Positions 8,337 to 22,385 of a stretch of 64,000 bases of DNA are shown piece after piece. Both the position numbers and the translations under genes were made by a program. Numbering within the stretch: the stretch's first letter is position 1; every line of letters starts with the position of its first letter. This DNA comes from Cavenderia fasciculata (taxonomy: Eukaryota > Evosea > Eumycetozoa > Acytosteliales > Cavenderiaceae): assembly GCF_000203815.1 (NCBI RefSeq), contig NW_004457723.1, positions 1,612,001-1,676,000 of the forward strand. Reading direction: 5' to 3'. The notes under the pieces were generated by a model that ran no database searches, was not told the origin of the DNA, and was given only the letters and a program-made list of their open reading frames with translations.

Positions 8337-8970
8337 CTTTCTCTCTTTCTCTCTCTATCTAATTATATCTATCCTATCCTCGCACTCACACTATTTCTCT
8401 TTTTATATAAAGTAAGTACTTTGGTTTGTAGTAAGTATCTTTCTGAACAATAGAGATTTGATTTACATTGTTCAAAGAAGAACTTCTCATTAAAAAAACG
8501 AGCGAAACATGATCGATCTCAAACATACAACAATTCATTTAAATTAGCATTACTCTTAATCTCTTATACCAAAAGAAGCAACAAACAAATTCTCGTCATC
8601 TCTAAGAGATATTCCCTCTCCTCTCTCTCTATATATATATTACCACACACGATCAGAGTAGATTAAATTTGAACTTAACACACAATTGTATAAACACCGC
8701 ACCCTCCTTATTTTTTTTTGTCTAATAAGTTTGGTGGTGTGTATTTTAAAACAACAACTCATCAATGTCAATGATCACCAATCATTAAAGTCGTTGTTGA
8801 CAGTTTTGAGTAAAGGTATCATTATGCACACCGGTGGTAGTAGATATATATCATCATCGGCCAGCATAGCAGATCATTTTAACAATTACACAATTTCATT
8901 CATTCGATCATTGGTATCATCAATCACTACTACAGATATGGATACCATTTCATTCTATTCTTGATCAAAC

Positions 8971-9118
8971 ATAGAAGTAGTTTAAATATGGTAATCACTG
9001 ATCATTGGAATATTATCATTTACCAAAGCGAGAAGATGCTTAAAAATGGTAATCATTGGTATGTTTTCATGTACCCAAAACTAGAACATGTTTAAATAAG
9101 GTAATTAAAATGATCATC
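8971..9118 (+). promoter_or_regulatory. Three imperfect upstream repeats of the cyclase promoter, copy A
   Basis: The core 'TTTAAAtATGGTAATCA' occurs at 8981-8997, again near 9040-9056 and in weaker form near 9091-9106. Each lies within a 40-60 bp unit that also has GATCAT or TCATTGG. The array is kept in copy B at 20920-21068. Position and conservation suggest transcription-factor sites; the binding protein is unknown. Confidence 0.45.
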
Positions 9119-9179
9119 TATCAGTTCCACCGATAATTATTAATATTGATGCCCATCCTCTTTTCATGCAACCGTTTAG

Positions 9180-9187
9180 TATAAATA
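9180..9187 (+). promoter_or_regulatory. TATA box of cyclase copy A
   Basis: TATAAATA lies 112 bp before the ATG at 9299 and is followed by an A/C-rich leader. The same box stands at 21118-21125, 111 bp before the ATG of copy B. Confidence 0.6.
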
Positions 9188-9298
9188 GAGCAATTTTCGA
9201 TTCATTATTTAAATCACAAATCAAACAATCAACAGTTTAACAACTAATTAAATTCACAACAACTACCATACACACTAATAATAATAATAATATTAAAA

Positions 9299-10285
9299 AT
9301 GGCAATTGAAATCATCAACTTTAACCAACTCATCCAAAGACAATCTTCTTTGGATAGATTCCCAACCACACTATTCCCAACCAACTATTTCTACATTGCT
9401 TTTTGTATCATTGTCTTCCTATACACCATCCAAAAGCGTGACAAGAAGTCATCAAGTCGCTTTATGGAAATACTCTCATCCAATCAATCAATAAGTATTT
9501 TAGAAATCAACTTTAATAACCGTATTGTCAGAACCAATAATAGTTCAGTATCACTCGAACAATTCTGTCAATCATACGTCATCGATTCAATCACCCTCCA
9601 AAACAACATCATCTCATCAATGAATCAATTCTCTCCAAGTGACGTACAAATCAAGAGCAAGAGCTGCTCTTCATACTATCGTCTCACTGGAAAGTACGAT
9701 GCTTCGACCAATGTCTTCCAAGGAATCATGATTGACAACACTCAAGAGAAACAACAACTCAACAAGCTCAAGAACACCTTGACTCACGATGCACTCACCG
9801 GTCTCCAAAATAGATACCATCTCAACAACAAGATCCAAAAGTTTTGTGCCAAGTCTTCATCAGAACAATGCTCAATCTATTTCATTGATCTCAACAAATT
9901 CAAACAAATCAACGATACCCACGGACACGACAATGGTGATGTTGTCCTCAGATCAGTTGCCGATCGCTTCCAACAATTCGCCGACGAATCAGTTCTCCCA
10001 GTCCGCCTTTCTGGCGACGAATTCCTCATTGTCAAGCGCAATGTAGAATCAAACACACAAGCTGACCAATTTATCTCCAGCTACCTCTCAAGTGTCCAAT
10101 GCGACACTGTCCAACTCAACAACTCAACGTCAATCAAAGTAACTCTTTCCTTTGGAGGTGTTGTATTCAACAAATCACAATCAACTCAAACCGATAAGTT
10201 GATTAAATGTGCCGATGAAAGAATGTATCAAATGAAAAAGAACCTTTTACCAAACGGCAACTCTACCGTTACCTTTACTGCTTAA
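9299..10285 (+). CDS. dgcA: Diguanylate cyclase, DgcA type (GGDEF domain), copy A
   Basis: A 328-residue single-exon gene. One hydrophobic segment (residues ~27-43, 'NYFYIAFCIIVFLYTIQ') followed by KRDKK suggests a membrane anchor. A linker leads to a GGDEF domain from about residue 160: 'DALTGLQNRYHL', 'FIDLNKFKQINDTHGHDNGD', the signature as 'RLSGDEF', and the C-terminal 'CADERMYQMKK'. This enzyme class joins two GTP into c-di-GMP. In dictyostelids DgcA is the known eukaryotic example, and its product triggers stalk-cell differentiation. The first Gly of GGDEF is Ser here, and the RxxD inhibitory site upstream is not visible ('ADES' instead). The start has the context AAAAATGG. The gene is almost identical to 21236-22201 after residue ~45. 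Confidence 0.92.
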   Translation: MAIEIINFNQLIQRQSSLDRFPTTLFPTNYFYIAFCIIVFLYTIQKRDKKSSSRFMEILSSNQSISILEINFNNRIVRTNNSSVSLEQFCQSYVIDSITLQNNIISSMNQFSPSDVQIKSKSCSSYYRLTGKYDASTNVFQGIMIDNTQEKQQLNKLKNTLTHDALTGLQNRYHLNNKIQKFCAKSSSEQCSIYFIDLNKFKQINDTHGHDNGDVVLRSVADRFQQFADESVLPVRLSGDEFLIVKRNVESNTQADQFISSYLSSVQCDTVQLNNSTSIKVTLSFGGVVFNKSQSTQTDKLIKCADERMYQMKKNLLPNGNSTVTFTA

Positions 10286-10311
10286 ATTAATAAATATTAA
10301 ATAATAACAAA

Positions 10312-10340
10312 AAAAAAAAAAGTAGTGTACTTTTTTTTTT
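10312..10340 (+). terminator. A/T hairpin behind cyclase copy A
   Basis: A10-GTA, loop GTG, TAC-T10: a perfect 13-bp inverted repeat 27 bp after the stop codon. The same structure lies at 22222-22250 behind copy B. It could help 3'-end formation; that role is inferred. Confidence 0.4.
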
Positions 10341-10467
10341 CTAAACACCTAAAATACTTGTCTTCTTTATTCTTTTTATATTAATTGTGCCAATAACAAA
10401 GTGACTTTCATAAAAGTAAAAACCAATTATTGTTGACGCCCTCTCTCTCTCTAGTTTGTTCTGATTT

Positions 10468-10513
10468 ACACCCACTATCTTTTGTTTGCAAAATTGGTTT
10501 TTTTTGCAATGAG
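10468..10513 (+). repeat. Left terminal inverted repeat of the pogo-like element
   Basis: Begins ACACCCACT and ends TTGCAATGAG. It pairs with the reverse complement of 12652-12697, with mismatches at three adjacent bases after ACACCCACT and one near the inner end. Confidence 0.88.
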
Positions 10514-10674
10514 TAATTTAATTTCTTTAAGTCAAACATCTACTATGGCAGTTACGGGTAGTAGTTGGAGTACAAGATTAAAATAAATAATAGAAAAGTT
10601 TTTTACAGCAAATGAATGTCATTATTATATTCAGCACATATATATAGATATTATTGGTATAAGATAAAGTCAAA

Positions 10675-12595
10675 ATGGAGGAATTAGCAAGCACAAAGCA
10701 AGATCAGAAACAGGTGTATGGAGAGATTTTAGGTGTTTTAACAGTCTTTTGGGAATGTAAATCAGGGCTAACATTACAAAAGGTCTTGGTGAGAGAACAA
10801 AAGGAGCGATTGGAAGCATCTGTGATGCTTACACTAGAGCACGGGGAGATTAGCAACAAAAATATTAGCTTCGTTTTGGGATTAGAAGAATATGAAGTAT
10901 CAGGGGCACTAAAGAAGAAATCTATAGTACCTCGCCAAAAGACACTTACACAAGAGGAAGAGGAAAAGATAATAGCCAAGATCAAGATATCTATTCAGCA
11001 GAATAGACCTATGACAAAGACAGATGTCAAGATTTTGGCACTCAATCTCTGGAAAGAGTGAACGGGCACAAAGAGAGAAAAGATGCTGTCAGACTCTTGG
11101 TGGAGAGGTTTTAGATCGAGATACGTAGATCTCAAGCTTAGATATGTTCGCTCTCAAGATTATAAAAGGGCACTTGCTGAACAAAAAGGTGGTTCTGACG
11201 CATGGATCAAGGAAACTAGAGATTTCATAGTAAAACATGGTATCAAACAAGAAAATATATTCAACATTGATGAAAAGGGAGTTCTCTTCACAGATACTAA
11301 ACAAAAGGTAACTATAGACAGTAGTGATTATACACATGCAATTGATTAGAGTTTACTAATAATTCAATGTCTTTGTCACAGGTTGTCATGTTTGTTTATA
11401 AAAATGCAAGGGAGACACTCAAACCAAAAGTTTTTAAACAAACTCAGTCCCAACACTTTACATTGGTAGGAGGAATAACAGGATTAGGTGGTAGTCTAAA
11501 GCCTTATTACGTTTTGCAGTTTCCAATCAAAAAGAATTGGTCCATTACTAGTAAAAATGAATATGGCTATCTGGAAGTTAATAAGAGTGGCTATGTAAGA
11601 TGATTTTTTAAAAATTTTCTTTTTCTACAAAATCTAAATATTATAATTAATTAACACACTCTTGTCTATAACTAATCGTATATAGGTAGATGAGTCAATC
11701 AAGCTAGACTGTGTCCAATTTTTTGTTAAACAGCTGACAACACCTGGCGACAAGTTACTTTTGGTCGACAATCATGGAAGTAATTTTAGTCCTGAATTAC
11801 TTCAATGGGCCAATGAAAACAAGGTTCACATTAAGAGCTTTCCATCCAATATGACACATATCTTACAACCTTTGGATCTTGTCATTTTTTCATCATTCTC
11901 TCAATCACTAAAGAATATGATACTAAAACAACTTCAAGACAAACCCAACTTTAAAATCGCACCCGAACACTACCAACAGTTTTCATGCTTTGCATGGGTC
12001 GAAGCAACAAAGCCAACCAACGTAATGGCTGCTTGGAACAAGTCAGGTATCATTAATTGTTCGCCACTCTCACCACAAGATCAGGGATTGATACCAAAAC
12101 CACCCAAGGCAACAAAAAAATCTTCAAAGGCTCTTGCTCTTGTTCAAACCACTTCTAATGCATTGGTAACGACAGATTCTTTACCACACAAGCAAAGATC
12201 AATGATGATGAGAGATAAGATGAGTACAGGCACTGTCTGGACCGACGACACAAATCGGTATGTTTAAACGATAACAACTACTACCCATTTTTTACTAACC
12301 TAATTTTCATTTAAATCAAAGAGACTTGGTTATTCATTATAAAAAAGAGACACGAAAGAGAAGACAGCCAAAAAAATCAGACTCTGGAGATGTTAACCTG
12401 AGCCAAGTTAACAATTATAACACCTTTAACCAAATTAATGTGGCTACCGGCGAAATGCGAGATGAAAATAATAGACCAGCTAAAAGAATAGCCTATGAAA
12501 GCAATACCAACTCATCATCCCAACTGTCAACCACTATTCAAAATCCTTCCTTAGTCTCTTCCGTCAAATCCCTATTTAATAAATTCTTGCATTGA
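10675..12595 (+). pseudogene. Pogo/Tigger-type transposase with one internal stop
   Basis: Exons are 10675-11307, 11382-11594, 11686-12257 and 12322-12595 (564 codons including the stop). Exon 1 is interrupted by a single TGA at 11059-11061, and the frame continues without shift on both sides. The N-terminal part has helix-turn-helix-like stretches ('LTQEEEEKIIAKIKISI') and 'SWWRGFRSRY', as in CENP-B/Tc5-type DNA-binding regions. The catalytic DDE_1 residues are present: D in 'FNIDEKGV', D in 'LLLVDNHGS' and D in 'HILQPLDLVIF'. The last two are 35 residues apart, the pogo-type D35D spacing. The C-terminus is basic ('KKETRKRRQPKK'). The enzyme would cut and paste the element. The stop is either a recent inactivation or a sequencing error. 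Confidence 0.85.
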
Positions 12596-12651
12596 ACTGT
12601 CTTCCCCCATATTCCCCATATAAATTGGGTCACCCCAAACTTTTTATTTTC

Positions 12652-12697
12652 CTCTTTGCAAAAAAAACCAATTTTGCAAACAAAAACAAGTGGGTGT
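12652..12697 (-). repeat. Right terminal inverted repeat of the pogo-like element
   Basis: Reverse complement of the left repeat at 10468-10513, with a 30-bp uninterrupted identical core. Confidence 0.88.
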
Positions 12698-13439
12698 TAA
12701 CTAGTGTACACAATTATCATGGTTGGACCATTGAGCTAAAGAGTTGATGCACACTCATCTTCTCTCCTCTTAAGCAAGCAAGCAAGCAAGCAATCAATCA
12801 ATCATGACAGCACCACATAGTTGAACTGAACTTGCAACACACACTCTGCTGCTGCTGTGCTTAGTGCACTCGTTTGTTAGAGTGTGTGTCAGTGTGTGAC
12901 AGACAGCCAATGAACATCAAATTTAATTGGGTGTGTTCATTGCATTCCCCTTTTTAGTCAAACTCGTTCAAGACGACAGACTGTGAGACGTGCAACCCCC
13001 GCCACCCACAAACTCATCATCATCCAGCAATGAAAATTAATTATGCGTATCAGATATATATAAACCCCCCACTACCCACACTAACTAATATTAAAAATAT
13101 TTAAATAATTACCGAGTGTTTCTTGGTATACCCTAACCAACCTGCTCACTCTCTCATACTCTATACTTATCCACTGATCATCCACTTTATTTCTTTTATG
13201 AAACTTGTTTCAAAAATCGTATGATATACAGATAATAATAGTGTCCTACTATTATCTCTCTCTCTCTCTCTTTTACTTCTCTATACTCAAACTCTTAAAC
13301 TTTAATTAACCATTTAACTTTCTCTTATTTTTTATTTTTTTTTCCATCTATCTATAGTCTTAAATCAACACAATCATTACTACTACGACCTATCAACAAT
13401 CAAAAATCAAATCATATATTTTACATTCATTATCCAATC
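12698..13439. other. Intergenic spacer with simple repeats
   Basis: No gene is seen. The stretch contains AAGC/AATC tetranucleotide runs (about 12773-12803), TG-rich patches, a CT run near 13255-13271 and an A/T- and pyrimidine-rich leader just before the start codon at 13440. It is probably the promoter of the secreted low-complexity gene. Confidence 0.6.
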
Positions 13440-16335
13440 ATGAACCCATTAATTATCATCTTTATTTTGTGTATCGTTGTATCATCTGTTTTTGCCAATA
13501 TGTCTTGCAACAACCAATATGTCTTTGTCAACGACACCAACTCATTGTCATCATCTTTTTCATTGTTCAACCATGTTGAGCAACAATCGACTATCATCCA
13601 AAATAACAATATTTCTTTGTCTATGATGCCATCATCCGTTTCATTGCCATCTTTTAATCATTTTGAACATCCAATCATTCTTATCAAAAACAAAAACAAC
13701 AAAAACAACATCAACTACAACAACAATAATAATAATAGCAATAATAATAACGATATCCATTCATCTATTTCACAAACCCAATTTGATTCAAATCATATTG
13801 TTTCTCAATGTCATTTACCATCAAACCATACTTTTATTCCTGTCTATAACAACAAAAATAATAATAACAATAATTTATCTTTTAATTCATCAATTTCAAT
13901 TCCTTTTAATGTTTTGTCCCAATCCCATTTCCAGTTACCATTAAATCACTCAACCAACAACCATATAATTTTCTATGACGACAAAGAGGAGGAGGAGGAA
14001 GAGGAAGAGTATGTTCAATGGAACAGCAACAGCAGCAACAACACAATCTCATGTTTCAACCATGTTAAACATCAATTAATTTCCATCAACTATCCATTGC
14101 CAATTAGTAGTTTTCCATCCTTTTCACACAACATTCACTATAACTCAAGCCATGTTTTGTGTATCTCAAATCATTCAACAACCAAAAACCATATTGTTTT
14201 AGAGGAGGAGGAGGAGGAGGAGGAGTCTGTTCAATTGAACAGCAACAGCAATACAATCTCATTTTCATATTTCAACCAATCAATTCCCATCGATAATAAT
14301 AATATTATTTCATTCCTCAATGTCCATCAATCATCGATTCCATGTTTTAAATCTAGTGATATTTTAACTCATTCAACAACAAACAACCACATTCTTGTAG
14401 AGGAGGAGTTTGTTCAATTGAACAACAGCAGCAAAATCACACATTCATTAACTTGTTTAGACAATGTTAAACATCAATCAATTCCAATTAGTAATCAATC
14501 AAATAATAATAATAATAACTATTTTTCATTAATTCATTCATCATCATTGAATTCACCTATTCCATTTTCATCTGATTATTTTAACTCTGCAAACACTTCC
14601 ACATCATCATCATCAACATTATCAAATACAATCAATTCAACAAGATCAAAGACAAGCCCATTTTCAAGATACTCCAGCAACATCTCAAGAATAGAAAACA
14701 ACAACAACGCGGTAACAAGCTCTGACAATTTAAACCAATTTACTGATACCTCTTCTTTTATTTTTATAGATACCAAAGTTGCCAACAATTATTTTGATTC
14801 TCTCAATTGTTTCGGAACCAATCATTCAAATCATACAATAATACAACAATCATCATCACCAATCAATCATCATACAATCCTCACCACAACCCACACTCAC
14901 AATCAATATTCACAAATCACTCCACCATCTTCAAATAATAATAATAATTCCTATTCATTTATTCACCCATTATTATCCATTAATACAGATTTTATTGTGC
15001 CCCAATGTCAATCACAACCATTAATTTCAAATTACTCAACAACCAACAACCTCATTCTTTTAGAAGAAAGGGAAAAGACTGTTCAATTGAACAGCAACAA
15101 CAACAACAACACAATCACAATCTCATTGTTCACCCATGTTGAACATTATTCAATTCATAATAATAATAATCATAATATTTCTTTCCATCAATTAAGTGAT
15201 ACATTATATCAAAGTCAATGTCAATCCAATCATACATTCTTTCCTATCAACAATAATAATTATAATTTATCTTTTCATCCACAGTGTCAATTCCTTTTAT
15301 ATATGTTTTGTCTCAATCCATGTCACCCATTCCATTAAACTCTAGCGATGTTTTGTTTCATTGTCAATCACCAAATCATTCAACAGCCACCAACAATTTT
15401 AATTTAGATCAGGAAGAGTCTGTTCAATTAAACAGCAGCAGAAATACAATCTCATTTTCATATTTCAATCAATCAATTCCCATAGATAATAATAATAATA
15501 ATATTTCATTCTTCAATGACCATCATCATCGACTCCATGGTTTAAATCTAGTGATATTTTAACTCATAGTCAATCATCATTGCCACAATTAATATTAAAC
15601 CATTCAACAACCAACAACCACATTCTTTTAGAGTTTGTTCAATTGAACAGCAACAGTAGCATCACAAATTCATTAACTTGTTTAGACCATGTTAAAAACC
15701 AATCAATTCTTTTTAATAGTAATCAATCAAATAATAATAATAATTATTATTCATTAATTCATTCATCCATTTCACCTAATCATTTCAACTCATTCTCATC
15801 ATCAAACACATCATATATATCAAATATAATCAAATCAACAAGATCAATTGCAAGCCCATTTAAATCAAGACACTCCAACATTTCAAGATTAAAAAACAAC
15901 CCGGTAACAAATAACAATAATAATACCAACACCAAATTAAAAAATACAAATATCAACAATAATAATAATAACTATGCCAACAACAACTCATCATCATCAT
16001 CATCATTCTCATGCTTCAACCATGTTGAAACATTCATCTCAACCAACAATCAACCAAAAAATATTAATAATAATAACAAAAATAATAACAAAAATAACAA
16101 AAATACAAAAACAAATATTAATAATAATATCAACAACAATAATAACAAAAATACAAAAACAAATAACAACATCAATAACACAAGAACAACAAACAATAAT
16201 AATATTATAATCTTTGCCGAACACTTCAACCCACAATCAATCATTCATTCATCACCAATCCTCAAGTCAGTTGCCCGTCCCAAACCCAGTGATCAAGAGT
16301 ACCAGTTTCCAAGCAACAATCACCACCATTCGTAG
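13440..16335 (+). pseudogene. Secreted Asn/Ser/His-rich repeat protein, broken by two frameshifts
   Basis: The first frame (13440-15338, 632 aa) starts with a good signal peptide, 'MNPLIIIFILCIVVSSVFA', then a low-complexity sequence built of degenerate ~100-residue units. Recurrent blocks are 'NHSTTNNHILLEEE..VQLN', 'SFSYFNQSIPIDNN' and 'SLTCLDHVKHQSIPI'. The same blocks continue after 15338 in two other frames: about 15284-15562 and about 15540-16335. Comparing the repeat units places the shifts near 15284 and near 15535. Fusing the frames would give about 960 residues. Unit similarity implies growth by internal duplication. It could be a young pseudogene, an expressed shorter protein ending at 15338, or an assembly problem in repeats. 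The function is unknown; an extracellular matrix or coat role would be a guess. Confidence 0.6.
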
Positions 16336-18180
16336 ACCAACATAATTAACTCTGTATCAAAAGTTGATAATTAATTATAAATTTACTGACTCTTTTTCTT
16401 TTTATTTTATAGGTACACTAATCATTATTCTCTTCAACTCTTTTGGTAATAACAACATCTTAATAAAACAACTAATAATATTAATAATAACCAACCACAA
16501 TAACTAATAATAATAATAATAACAATAATAACAACAATAACTAATAATAATAATAATGACAACAACCAACAGCAATAACTAATAATAATAATAATTACAA
16601 CAACAACAACCACCAATTACAATCCTCTTCTTTTCTAAAAAAAAAGATATTCAATTACTTTTACCCAAGTGGTTTCCCTCTATTCCTACTCTTTTCTTTT
16701 TATACATTTTCCGTTGCCATCGTCCGTGCCCAGTCCAGTCCAGTCCAGTCCATCATCGTCCATCCATGTTCCACGTCTCCCTAGGCTTTTATACCCAAAA
16801 AAGATATTCAATTACTTTGAACCAAGTGGTTTCCTTTTAAAAAGATATTAAATTACTTTTACCCAGAGGGTTTCCCAGGTTCGCCCCCGTGTAAGTCGAT
16901 TTTCTTCGCATTGGGGGGCTTTTTTTTTTTTTGGACTGTTCCCATGGTCTAAACAACCATGGGAACAACCAAAACTATATTTTTCTATTTCTTTCTTTCT
17001 CTTTTTTCTCTTTTTCCCTCTCTTTTTTATTATTTTTTATTTATTTATTTATTTATTCTTTTACCGCCAATTCAATATTATTTTTCTGACGATTTTAAAA
17101 TTAATTAAACCATCATCAGAATTGTAATAATTATTATTTGTAACAAATATTTGTGACACTACAACTGTAGCAATATGTGTCTTTATAAAGGTATGCACCC
17201 AAAGATGGTTTATGGGTTTGTAACTTTAATTTATTAAAATTAACACTTTTAAAATAAAAATAAAATAAAAAAGCAACCACACCACTTCACCAACTCTGAC
17301 TTTTTGATCAGACCTTTATTATTTTATTTTTCTTGTATTTATAAATATAATTAATGACTTGTTACTCACAACATATCAATATATACTGATACATATAACT
17401 ATAGATAGAAAAGATGATACGAATAAATAAATAAAGACTGTTTTTATGTGCACTATCTATTTCTTACAATCATTATTTAGCTCCATCATCCCCCAACTAT
17501 TCCTCGTGACACATCCTCTATAGTCCATTGCCCATGATCCACAATCATGCCTAGTACAACCATCATCCACCACTGGTGGAAAATCAAGAAAGTATAAAGT
17601 CTTATTGTGACAGATGAATTTTATAATGTTTTAGTTAGTATTGGAATCGATTGATCAAGATAGATTCTTCACAAAGGAAATAATATTAATATTAATTTAT
17701 ATTATTTTAAATATATTTAGTTATTTTAGAGACACCAGCAAATTACTATGTTGATACGTGATAGATTAAGGATTGCGGATTGTATATAGTGGACCCAGGC
17801 CGATGTCTGCCATCCTCCACCATCATATACCATCTATCAATCAATCATCTATAGTCCATCCACTATCCATGGTAGACTATAGTCGTCCATCTTTGTCAAT
17901 CTCAGCCACCATTGTACATATTCAACAATAGTCCAAGTGGAAAATCAAGAATGCATCATGTTTTATTAATATCGATGGTTCAATGCATTGGAATGATGGA
18001 TCAATTAAATAGAATCACAATAGTCCAACTGTGGATATCGTATTATTATTTGATTTACATCAGCAATGGACTCTTGTAGATACAGTACATTTTGATTATA
18101 ATCATTGTTTAATACAAAGAATCCAATAAACTTATAGAAATCTTTAAACTACAATTCAATCTAAGACTAAAATTTCTATC
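16336..18180. other. Long non-coding spacer with small repeats
   Basis: No convincing gene. It holds TAA/CAA triplet repeats (about 16460-16620); three copies of a ~37-bp unit beginning AAGATATT-AATTACTTT (16643-16680, 16799-16838, 16841-16876); CAGTC pentamers near 16730-16750; a 12-bp stem hairpin at 16937-16967; and AT-rich unique sequence up to 18180. Two segments near 17575 and 17935 share 'GTGGAAAATCAAGAA', hinting at an old duplication. Confidence 0.5.
16937..16967. repeat. Perfect 12-bp inverted repeat (hairpin)
   Basis: TGTTCCCATGGT and ACCATGGGAACA are separated by 7 bases (16949-16955). The hairpin follows a run of T and a GC-rich stretch. It could be a small RNA hairpin or a remnant of a mobile element. 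Confidence 0.6.
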
Positions 18181-18181
18181 T

Positions 18182-18947
18182 ATTTCCACCATCCACTATC
18201 CATCTTCTATCCATCCATCCACTAACCTCTATCCATCCGTCCTCATCCATCCATCCTCATCCAACCATCCTCTATCCTCTATCCATCCATCCTCTATCCT
18301 CTATCCAACCATCCTCATCCAACCATCCTCATCCATCAGCCCTCTTCATCCATCCGTCCTCATCATCTATCCATCCGTCCGTCCTCATCATCTATCCATC
18401 CTCTATCCTCTATCCATCCATCCTCTATCCACCATCTTCTATCCAACCATCCTCATCCAACCAACCATCCTCCATCCATCCTCTAACCATCCGTCTTCAT
18501 CCAACCAACCATCCTCCATCCATCCTCTATCCACCATCTTCTATCCAACCATCCTCATCCAACCAACCATCCTCCATCCATCCTCTATCCATCCGTCCTC
18601 ATCCAACCAACCATCCTCTATCCATCCATCCTCTATCCATCCATCAGCCCTCATCCACCATCCTTCTTCATCCATCCGTCCGTCCTCATCCATCCATCCT
18701 CTATCCACCATCCACCATCCACCATCCCTATCCATCCACCATCCGACCATCCTCTATCCATCCAACCACCATCCTCTATCCATCCACCATCCGACCATCC
18801 TCTATCCATCCATCCACCATCCATCATCCATCCACCATCCACCATCCACCATCCATCCTCTATCCTCCATCCATCCACCATCTACCATCCATCCTCTATC
18901 CATCTACCATCCATTCTTCCACTATCCGCCATCCACTATCCATCATA
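18182..18947. repeat. CCATCC-rich minisatellite
   Basis: About 770 bp built from variants of CCATCC, CTCTATCC, CTCATCC and CCAACCATCC in irregular higher-order order. The open frames on the minus strand (Trp/Met/Asp/Gly repeats) are by-products of the repeat. Confidence 0.92.
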
Positions 18948-19079
18948 GGTGCGGTACACCTTGCTTATCTTTTTTAGAGTCAACAATAATTAATTAATTA
19001 ATTATGTATTTTCTTTATAACAATTGATCAAATAGGATTATATTTAGGAAAGATTTGGATATAAAATCTTATTTCTTTT

Positions 19080-19438
19080 TCAACATCGAATCAATGATAT
19101 TAGATCGATTTCAAATTGTAGAAATGCTACATTGTTGTGTAGCTTGTCCACACGTTTGATGTTGGGGATGGTCGAAATGATATTAGACAATTTCTGGTGT
19201 ACTTGGGTTTGAATGTTATTACTCTCGGTTTTAATCCTTTAAAAAATAGATTGATTGATCTTCAAATTAATTTTCATCAATTGCAATGCAACACTCAAAA
19301 TATTATCACTATAGGATGCAACAATTGGTAAATGTTCCAATCCGAATCCTCTTACTATCAATTGATAATATTGAATTGTTTGATTTGTTCAACAATTGGG
19401 TATAATAATGGTAATTGTCTTCCACGAAGATGAATCAT
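19080..19438 (-). pseudogene. Decayed unknown gene fragment
   Basis: Read on the minus strand from an ATG at 19438-19436, the sequence is coding-like but broken. 'MIHLRGRQLPLLYPIVEQIK' is followed by a frameshift near 19365. A second stretch, 'LEHLPIVASYSDNILSVALQ', follows. After an in-frame TAA it continues as 'TESNNIQTQVHQKLSNIIST' to a stop at 19080-19082. The composition is amphipathic and helical, unlike the surrounding spacer. The family is not recognised. It may be the remnant of a gene lost during rearrangement of the cyclase/ankyrin units. Confidence 0.4.
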
Positions 19439-19540
19439 AGAAAAGATGAATTAGAATATTAAAATGGGATCAAATAAATTTTGAGGAAACCCTTTTAAAC
19501 TAAATCATTATTGGATCACCTAACCCAATAACTATACTAA

Positions 19541-19640
19541 CAGTTCCCTTTACCGATATTTAAATTAATAGATAATAACAAAAAAAAAAAAAAGGTTATT
19601 TTTCAAACACCCTAAATACTTGTCTTGTCTTCTTAATTCT
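19541..19640 (+). pseudogene. Relic of a third diguanylate cyclase 3' end
   Basis: The sequence 'CCCTTTACCGATATTTAAATTAA' region (19547-19570), then GATAATAAC, a long A run and 'CAAACACCCTAAATACTTGTC' wording (19599-19620) matches the end of the GGDEF genes and their 3' flank (10269-10370 and 22185-22280), with the stop-codon neighbourhood altered. Only the last few codons and the 3' flank remain; the hairpin is degraded. Confidence 0.55.
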
Positions 19641-19684
19641 TTTTTTAAAACCAACTTGAACAAACAAATAATAATATTTTAATA

Positions 19685-20149
19685 ATGTCAACAATCACAT
19701 TTCATTGTATATTCAGATCTAAATACATTAGACAAATGATATTCAATCATATTAATGATATATCAAAACAATTGTATCAAAGATCATTGGTAGGAAGAGA
19801 CATCATCAAATTACCTCTTCTTGAAATGATATCAATCTACGCAGTGCCGTGGGACTTTATTCGTCATTATCTACCAACTGATATTGATCAAATACAATTA
19901 AAAGGAGTGATCAGTAAATACTGTTGTCATGACAATGCAACATTGGATAAAGTCAAACATCTATTGGAGTGGTCTCACGTTGACTTTGATTGGGATCTCT
20001 TTAAAAGTAATGGTAGATATATACCAAATAAAGAGATACTGGAATATGTCATAGAGAGCTGTCATGATGATTTTACTAGCTTTGTCATACAGATAATGAA
20101 CACTCCTTTCAAACCTCTAGGTTACCAAATGGACACCATAATTAATTAA
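19685..20149 (+). CDS. Truncated ankyrin-family protein, 154 aa
   Basis: It starts 'MSTITFHCIFRSKYIRQMIF', the N-terminal pattern of the ankyrin-repeat family seen at 5053-7447 and 22386-24629. It continues through the helical N-terminal region and stops at residue 154, where relatives run to about 745. No continuing exon was found in the ~350 bp that follow. It is therefore probably a 3'-truncated copy, though a short expressed product is possible. The first ~16 codons, without the ATG, recur at about 22311-22365, downstream of cyclase copy B. Confidence 0.6.
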   Translation: MSTITFHCIFRSKYIRQMIFNHINDISKQLYQRSLVGRDIIKLPLLEMISIYAVPWDFIRHYLPTDIDQIQLKGVISKYCCHDNATLDKVKHLLEWSHVDFDWDLFKSNGRYIPNKEILEYVIESCHDDFTSFVIQIMNTPFKPLGYQMDTIIN

Positions 20150-20919
20150 TATTAAAATCGTAAAGTATTTGCAGTACACAATGGTAAGAATTCTTCATGA
20201 AAATAGAAATAAATAATAACTGATAAAGATGTAAATAATAATCTGATATTAATTAAATCATTTGATTAATCATAATAGGAACAAACTAAAGCATTTCAAT
20301 CAATGAAATGAATAATGTTGCAAGATCGCCAAAATAGCTATATATATAATATTTATAAATTATATAACGACAAAACATGTTTCCTTTTGTCAAGATTTCC
20401 ATTTAGTCTTTAGATCTGGTATGTACCATCTTTTCACTTACAACAAACACTACTTTTAAAAGTACTCGAGTGACAATTAGTCAGTGTCAAGGTTCTGATT
20501 CGGTAATCGCATACTCTCAGAGTTTATACCAAAATAAGCAACAAACCAAACCATCATCTCTAAGAGAATATTCCCTCTGCTCTCCTCTCACTCACTATGA
20601 CCACACACGATCATATTAGATTTGAACTCAACACACACAATTGTATTAACAACGCCCCTCCTTATTTTTTTTTGCCTAAACAGTTTGGTGGTGTGTATTT
20701 TAAAACAACACTCATCAATGTGATCACCAATCATTAAAGTCGTTGTTGACAGTTTTGAGTAAAGGTATCATTATGCACACCGGTGGTAGTAGATTTATAT
20801 CATCATCGGCCAGCATAGCAGATCATTTTAACAACTACACAATTTCATTCATTCGATCATTGGTATCATCAATCACTACTACAGATATGGATATCATTTC
20901 ATTCTATTCTTGATCAAAC

Positions 20920-21068
20920 ATAGAAGTAGTTTAAATATGGTAATCACTGATCATTGGAATATTATCATTTACCAAAGCGAGTAGATGCTTAAAAATGGTA
21001 ATCATTGGTATGTTTTCATCTACCCAAAACTAGAACATGTTTAAATAAGGTAATTAAAATGATCATCT
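20920..21068 (+). promoter_or_regulatory. Three imperfect upstream repeats of the cyclase promoter, copy B
   Basis: Counterpart of 8971-9118. The three TTTAAAtATGGTAAT-type units are retained in the same order and spacing, while part of the following spacer (around 21069-21085) differs from copy A. Confidence 0.45.
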
Positions 21069-21117
21069 CCATCTGATCACCAACTGATGCCCATCCTCTT
21101 TTCATGCAACCGTTTAG

Positions 21118-21125
21118 TATAAATA
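21118..21125 (+). promoter_or_regulatory. TATA box of cyclase copy B
   Basis: TATAAATA lies 111 bp before the ATG at 21236, in the same context as copy A. Confidence 0.6.
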
Positions 21126-21235
21126 GAGCTATTTCGATTCATTATTTAAATCACAAATCAAACAATCAACAGTTTAACAACTAATTAAATTCACAACAAC
21201 TACCATACACACTAATAATAATAATAATATTAAAA

Positions 21236-22201
21236 ATGGCAATTGAAATCATCAACTTTAACCAACTCCAAAGACAATCTTTGGATAGATTCCCAACCAA
21301 CTATTTCTACATTGCTTTTTGTATCATTTTCTTCTTATATACCATCCAAAAGCGTGACAAGAAATCATCAAGTCGCTTCATGGAAATACTCTCATCCAAT
21401 CAATCAATCAGTATTTTAGAAATCAACTTTAACAACCGTATTGTCAGAACCAACAACAGTTCAGTATCACTCGAACAATTCTGTCAATCATACGTCATCG
21501 ATTCAATCACCCTCCAAAACAACATCATCTCATCAATGAATCAATTCTCTCCAAGTGACGTACAAATCAAGAGCAAGAGCTGCTCTTCATACTATCGTCT
21601 CACTGGAAAGTACGATGCTTCGACCAATGTCTTCCAAGGAATCATGATTGACAACACTCAAGAGAAACAACAACTCAACAAGCTCAAGAACACCTTGACC
21701 CACGATGCACTCACCGGTCTCCAAAATAGATACCACCTCTACAACAAGATTCAAAAGTTTTGTGCCAAGTCTTCATCAGAACAATGCTCAATCTATTTCA
21801 TTGATCTCAACAAATTCAAACAAATCAACGATACCCACGGACACGACAATGGTGATGTTGTCCTCAGATCAGTTGCCGATCGCTTCCAACAATTCGCCGA
21901 CGAATCAGTTCTCCCAGTCCGCCTTTCTGGCGACGAATTCCTCATTGTCAAGCGCAATGTAGAATCAAACACACAAGCTGACCAATTTATCTCCAGCTAC
22001 CTCTCAAGTGTCCAATGCGACACTGTCCAACTCAACAACTCAACGTCAATCAAAGTAACTCTTTCCTTTGGAGGTGTTGTATTCAACAAATCACAATCAA
22101 CTCAAACCGATAAGTTGATTAAATGTGCCGATGAAAGAATGTATCAAATGAAAAAGAACCTTTTACCAAACGGCAACTCTACCGTTACCTTTACTGCTTA
22201 A
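21236..22201 (+). CDS. dgcA: Diguanylate cyclase, DgcA type (GGDEF domain), copy B
   Basis: A 321-residue intact paralogue of 9299-10285. Differences are confined almost entirely to the first ~40 residues (7 residues missing in small in-frame steps, V to F in the membrane segment), plus one N to Y change in 'RYHLYNKIQ'. All GGDEF-domain motifs are kept: 'DALTGLQNRY', 'FKQINDTHGHDNGD', 'RLSGDEF' and 'ADERMYQMKK'. It should therefore also make c-di-GMP, the dictyostelid stalk-inducing messenger. The in-frame nature of the indels and the conserved TATA box argue that both copies are working genes, or that duplication or gene conversion was recent. The single hydrophobic segment suggests membrane anchoring. 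Confidence 0.92.
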   Translation: MAIEIINFNQLQRQSLDRFPTNYFYIAFCIIFFLYTIQKRDKKSSSRFMEILSSNQSISILEINFNNRIVRTNNSSVSLEQFCQSYVIDSITLQNNIISSMNQFSPSDVQIKSKSCSSYYRLTGKYDASTNVFQGIMIDNTQEKQQLNKLKNTLTHDALTGLQNRYHLYNKIQKFCAKSSSEQCSIYFIDLNKFKQINDTHGHDNGDVVLRSVADRFQQFADESVLPVRLSGDEFLIVKRNVESNTQADQFISSYLSSVQCDTVQLNNSTSIKVTLSFGGVVFNKSQSTQTDKLIKCADERMYQMKKNLLPNGNSTVTFTA

Positions 22202-22221
22202 ATTAATAAATATTAATTAAC

Positions 22222-22250
22222 AAAAAAAAAAGTAGTGTACTTTTTTTTTT
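22222..22250 (+). terminator. A/T hairpin behind cyclase copy B
   Basis: A10-GTA, loop GTG, TAC-T10, identical to 10312-10340. It starts 21 bp after the stop codon. Confidence 0.4.
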
Positions 22251-22385
22251 TCTAAACACCCTAAATACTTGTCTTCTTTATTCTTTAAAACAAACTTGAA
22301 CAAATAATAATATTCAACAATCACATTTCATTGTAAATTCAGATCTAAATACATTAGATTTAATTTGTTTGTTTCTAGAAAAGAT

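Follow-up and report, generated by a model that had tools for sequence, protein, structure and literature searches.

Two near-identical diguanylate cyclase genes in one block

The window analysed here, a 64,000-nucleotide stretch of Cavenderia fasciculata DNA (C7:1612001-1676000; the contig labels C1, C3, C4, C7, C8 and C12 are our own), carries two open GGDEF genes on the plus strand. We take Dictyostelium fasciculatum to be this organism, now placed in Cavenderia. Copy A (9299-10285) encodes 328 residues comprising an N-terminal tail, one hydrophobic segment, an unassigned middle region and a GGDEF domain at residues 162-315 with an SGDEF motif, and copy B (21236-22201) encodes 321 residues with its GGDEF domain at 155-308. 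The near-identity of the two genes reported in the first-pass annotation is borne out by a single collinear blastn match between 8564-10375 and 20524-22286, a stretch of ~1.8 kb with 94.2% identity over 1816 columns. Copy B lacks I12, S17 and FPTTL 21-25 of copy A (seven residues in all), and the replacements are V39F and N176Y, the latter being the single replacement across the 289 residues beyond 39. Identity is densest in the coding body, with zero differences from codon 201 to the end. Both genes are intact.

The upstream region of A (8564-9298) is shared with that of B (20524-21235, placed by blastn, the upstream comparison and the motif scan) and is near-identical to it from about 8750. 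The earlier description of about 700 bp of duplicated upstream DNA with a TATA box and repeats stands as to extent, since similarity spans ~735 bp and TATAAATA lies upstream of both genes at -119/-118, but near-identity is limited to the proximal 550 bp, where 14 of 533 positions are substituted (2.6%), against 28 of 178 (16%) in the distal part at 8564-8748. A TTTAAAAATGGTAATCATTGG-like motif occurs twice upstream of each gene in a loose scan that also returned three matches in one mononucleotide shuffle of the window. Downstream, the 3' flank of A that is common to B (10286-10375) contains an A-run/T-run palindrome, and the end of the 3' flank of B (22202-22358) resembles, in truncated form, the beginning of the ankyrin-type unit found at 19685 (19540-19732 against 22181-22358, 75%).

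Several features lie between the two genes, all on the plus strand. A DNA transposon of ~2.2 kb (10465-12700), with terminal inverted repeats of ~52-57 nt and a DDE_1 match, is followed by a spacer (12699-19533) holding a low-complexity ORF at 13440-15338; a long low-complexity tract of CATCCATCC type occupies 18200-18950 of this spacer. Beyond it lie the 3' remnant of a third dgcA copy that has otherwise been lost (19534-19647, 73-90% identical to dgcA 3' ends) and an ankyrin-type-related ORF of 154 residues (19685-20149), which is matched at least 160 times genome-wide and whose relatives adjoin other dgcA copies. The transposon has five other copies in the genome at 99-100% identity, and it is young because all six are this similar; a counterpart of the block on C3 has no transposon and about 170 bp at that place. 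The element is a later guest in the block and was active recently. A duplication driven by the transposon is ruled out by its absence from the C3 counterpart and by the youth of its copies.

The possibility that the pair is an assembly duplication is extremely improbable, with nothing in its favour except high identity. Between -750 and +110 the two copies differ in 159 aligned columns when gaps are included (hence substitutions and indels alike), their outer flanks differ, the transposon stands on one side only, and the counterpart block lies on another contig, C3. According to excerpts of PMC5282741, primer walking and a map of fosmids aided the D. fasciculatum assembly.

Domain architecture and the SGDEF motif

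A match to Pfam GGDEF at 4.6e-35 and a score of 111.1 bits against TIGR00254, above its curated cut-off of 37.4, agree with the original identification of the genes as eukaryotic GGDEF diguanylate cyclases. All 13 aligned family rows carry SGDEF and not the canonical GG(D/E)EF, a feature that, judged by sequence, counts against the textbook motif and not against DgcA as such. Other conserved residues of the domain are retained, with D190, N198, D199, G206, D207 and G232-F235 among the columns invariant with nine of 12 bacterial loci. These 12 loci, picked by short peptide patterns in a scan for a bacterial donor, share 28-35% identity with the copies, and none is close. The predicted structure is good only across residues ~151-309 (ten-residue means of 76-94), with most of residues 1-144 below 50; a PAS-like middle region is suspected by eye, in a part of the protein where the model is uninformative.

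Taken together, A and B should be single-pass, membrane-bound diguanylate cyclases that make c-di-GMP, the stalk signal, from promoters of the same type. The first-pass annotation had proposed two differently anchored enzymes; this reading, taken to imply separate roles, draws on the location of the length differences in the N-terminal tail. We regard it as very unlikely: the hydrophobic segments are alike except for one V/F change, what remains is a seven-residue difference in the tail before the segment, and tail length also varies among the other intact copies. A six-frame search of the genome for c-di-GMP effectors returned zero EAL and zero PilZ matches, with control matches in 6/14 and 5/14 genomes, respectively.

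A dgcA family of 13 places

Counting GGDEF genes across the 31.0-Mb, 21-contig assembly, as had been suggested, gave 13 places on five contigs (C1, C3, C4, C7 and C8), in a search whose controls matched in 8/14 genomes. The family and not the pair is therefore the unit to consider, for the window holds only A and B, and 11 further places lie outside it. Amplification of dgcA to 13 genes in D. fasciculatum is already published (PMC10559540, Kawabe et al. 2023, seen in excerpt), and A and B are two intact members of the 13-place family found here in a group-1 dictyostelid, most likely D. fasciculatum, the agreement with the published figure being one of count.

Eight of the 13 places are open. 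Besides A and B these are copy C (C3:1322139, minus strand), copies D and E (C4:353624 and C4:356123), copies F and G (C4:375013 and C4:378204, both minus) and copy L (C4:896882-897751, minus). The other five carry lesions: copy H (C3:2304567) has a 1-nt deletion within a C run, copy I (C3:2296441) frame changes and a TAA, copy J (C3:2370388, minus) two single-base insertions, copy K (C8:470996) a TAA, a 20-nt gap and an N-terminus that is not in place, and copy M (C1:1692599-1693598, minus) a frame-breaking 2-nt gap. Because the assembly was built from Sanger and 454 reads (PMC5282741, in part), errors in the reads might account for the lesions in H and M. Fragments of dgcA are scattered at C8:473854-474195, C3:2301646-2302001, C3:2373904-2374017 and C7:1275212-1275325, as signs of gene birth and death. 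Copies L and M are distant from the others and have no listed ankyrin-type neighbour; one of them may be the ancestral locus.

Probable spread of copies with ankyrin-type genes

The ORF at 19685-20149 had zero matches in a Pfam search; two of its relatives on C4 show a weak ankyrin match (Ank_2) below cut-off, and a 350-residue ORF between G and F is an ankyrin gene (Ank_4, 2.3e-70). Within the best 42 of its at least 160 genome matches, a cut of our choosing with E values as weak as about 1e-31, C4 accounts for 38, of which 37 fall within 149-552 kb, where D, E, F and G are located as well. The four matches of this set on other contigs include the window ORF, C3:2302078 and C8:471765, each immediately following a dgcA copy or the remnant of one. 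Lower-ranked matches listed are largely on C12 and other contigs. The 149-552 kb stretch of C4 is a dense ankyrin-type gene cluster containing four intact dgcA copies.

Among the matches listed, an ankyrin-type gene stands 126-627 bp behind four of the 13 dgcA copies (D, E, G and K), and an ankyrin-type gene flanked on both sides by dgcA is a repeated arrangement, present on four contigs, with some of the first or second copies being remnants. On C4 the arrangement occurs as D-ankyrin-E and G-ankyrin-F, mutually inverted; on C3 as remnant-ankyrin-H and remnant-ankyrin-J, with the contexts of H and J alike over 3.7 kb at 91%; on C7 as remnant-ankyrin-B; and on C8 as K-ankyrin-fragment. Upstream DNA is common with B in ten of the 13 copies (A-J) over at least about 70 bp, extending no more than ~75-120 bp in E and F. 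A decayed counterpart of the block made up of A, spacer and B lies on C3, where the spacer from 12699 matches the DNA between I and H piecewise from C3:2297688 onward (63-100% identity, some pieces being internal repeats). No ankyrin-type gene lies near C, L or M among the matches listed, and carriage by ankyrin-type genes does not extend to these three copies.

Because promoters and neighbours were copied along with the genes, the copies spread as DNA segments, and retroposition is ruled out as their source. Our best reading, which we hold to be probable, is segmental duplication together with ankyrin genes, followed by local gene conversion. Recombination among the abundant ankyrin-type genes would have multiplied and moved the unit, with dgcA travelling along; copies within one block would later have been homogenised by gene conversion; and the latest such event may have affected the pair A-B between about -550 and the stop codon, perhaps with A written onto B. 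This account of ankyrin units and conversion was not found in the open-licence PMC literature in the portions covered. The present analysis thus recasts the pair as part of a 13-place family and adds an account of how its members spread with ankyrin-type genes.

Possible gene conversion and the likeness of A and B

Had the block already contained both genes when it was copied, A would be expected to group with I and B with H, the positional counterparts suggested by the block comparison. The observed divergence at third positions from codon 76 to the end is instead 0.020 for A-B and 0.035 for H-I, against 0.138 for A-I and 0.114 for B-H, so that paralogues at neighbouring sites such as A and B are closer than these putative positional counterparts. 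AU tests on the coding sequences of ten copies, with clades picked after the divergence table was known, rejected A+I (p 0.0011) and B+H (p 1e-11), and the corresponding tree joined A+B with support of 100/100. A tree of 350 bp of upstream DNA from eight copies again recovered A+B (61/99) alongside H+J (86/93), rejected A+I and B+H, and placed A+B beside I weakly (40/79); this placement gives a weak indication of conversion from A to B. The conversion tests and trees covered copies A-J, setting aside K, L and M (partial, distant or both), and the promoter tree further set aside E and F. Gene conversion within each block would explain why A groups with B over their positional counterparts.

In three versions of a run-length permutation test, pairwise p values for A-B were 0.010, 0.047 and 0.061, but no tract remained significant once corrected (global p 0.94, 1.00 and 0.98), because the pair is almost uniformly similar. 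With the coding sequences of ten copies no pair reached global p 0.05, the best being I-J at 0.056, and with six copies (A, B, C, H, I and J) the pairs A-I, I-J, H-J and B-I fell below it. The A-I run at 9163-9413, which had a global p below 0.001 with these six copies, may reflect either retained ancestry or exchange between contigs. In an earlier version A-B did not appear among the pairs with pairwise p <0.05; its significant rows for E are set aside, because non-homologous upstream sequence of E and F had been included. Since the A-B tract is not significant, the case for conversion rests on the positional argument. Conversion, which the first-pass annotation had offered as an alternative, is the explanation favoured by comparison but is not proven.

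The main rival to this explanation is that B is a simple, recent 1.8-kb duplicate of A that landed behind the ankyrin-type gene without conversion, which we consider somewhat unlikely. Such an insertion fits the near-uniform divergence of A and B from -550 to +90 (14/533 upstream, 5/254 at third positions within the body and 4/84 in the 3' flank). B and H are also unlike at their left junctions; since the sequence separating B from the ankyrin-type gene fails to align with the sequence that precedes H, B could have arisen by a more recent insertion of a copy of A. Against this, a second dgcA behind an ankyrin-type gene also occurs twice on C4 and twice on C3, and the slot was therefore probably occupied earlier. 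Moreover, divergence rises upstream of about 8750, and A and B stay homologous farther upstream, past the near-identical part, with 16% divergence (28/178 versus 14/533, p 5e-9), although this distal DNA is in part rich in CT/TA and could be evolving rapidly. The likeness of A and B may be accounted for by conversion or by late insertion, with duplication followed by conversion as our preferred reading.

Selection, promoters and gene dosage

The comparison of synonymous with non-synonymous differences proposed at the outset gave dN 0.0026, dS 0.058 and dN/dS 0.045 for A-B on 13 substitutions, and all 21 comparisons among the close intact copies A-G lie between 0.034 and 0.256. In broken copy I, seven of eight private changes fall on the first or second base of a codon, compared with seven of 23 in intact A-G; this pattern is absent from broken copies H (1/2) and J (1/5), and all these numbers are small. 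Copy E is cut at -68 and its TATA box is gone, copy F keeps the TATA box and has lost the upstream motifs, and copy G has its TATA at -125, with the motif found only when seven mismatches are allowed. Because of the losses in E and F, expression probably differs among the copies, with A and B alike. Excerpts of PMC10559540 report late up-regulation of dgcA in stalk cells and disturbed stalk formation upon its loss, at the level of the family and not per copy.

Gene dosage, as suggested in the first-pass annotation, is a possible hypothesis. Selection for dosage of the stalk-signal gene might have driven the amplification and might still maintain it, a proposal that is compatible with duplication followed by conversion and that draws on the low dN/dS among A-G and on the retention of SGDEF throughout the family. 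We nonetheless judge it unlikely, given the lesions in five of 13 copies and the damaged promoters of E and F; purifying selection on copies is also no proof that copy number matters. The fuller scenario, in which a laterally acquired developmental signal gene was captured by an expanding ankyrin array, multiplied, scattered with its promoter across several contigs and then maintained in concerted evolution as a multi-copy set, so raising the output of c-di-GMP for the stalk in this species, appears to us quite unlikely. Were dosage true, this species would show the scaling-up of a horizontally acquired signal gene in multicellular development.

Comparison with known systems

Among bacterial enzymes, the copies may be set beside the YfiN/TpbB (DgcN) type, from which they differ in scoring below the equivalog cut-off (143.8 versus 325 bits), in having no recognised N-terminal domain and in replacing GGDEF with SGDEF. 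They also carry ADES where several bacterial rows show RxxD. As excerpted from PMC3974145, ECA3270 of Pectobacterium atrosepticum is an active SGDEF cyclase; the motif is therefore compatible with activity, and the copies described here may be active. In the same excerpts, a change to serine at that motif position inactivated VCA0965, and the SGDEF motif alone thus does not settle activity. Among eukaryotes, the dgcA genes of Dictyostelium discoideum, Polysphondylium pallidum and P. violaceum are likewise eukaryotic GGDEF genes (PMC10559540 and PMC4686194, in part). Compared by description in the excerpted text of PMC10559540, dgcA is single copy in most Dictyostelia, in contrast to the 13 places, eight of them open, found here.
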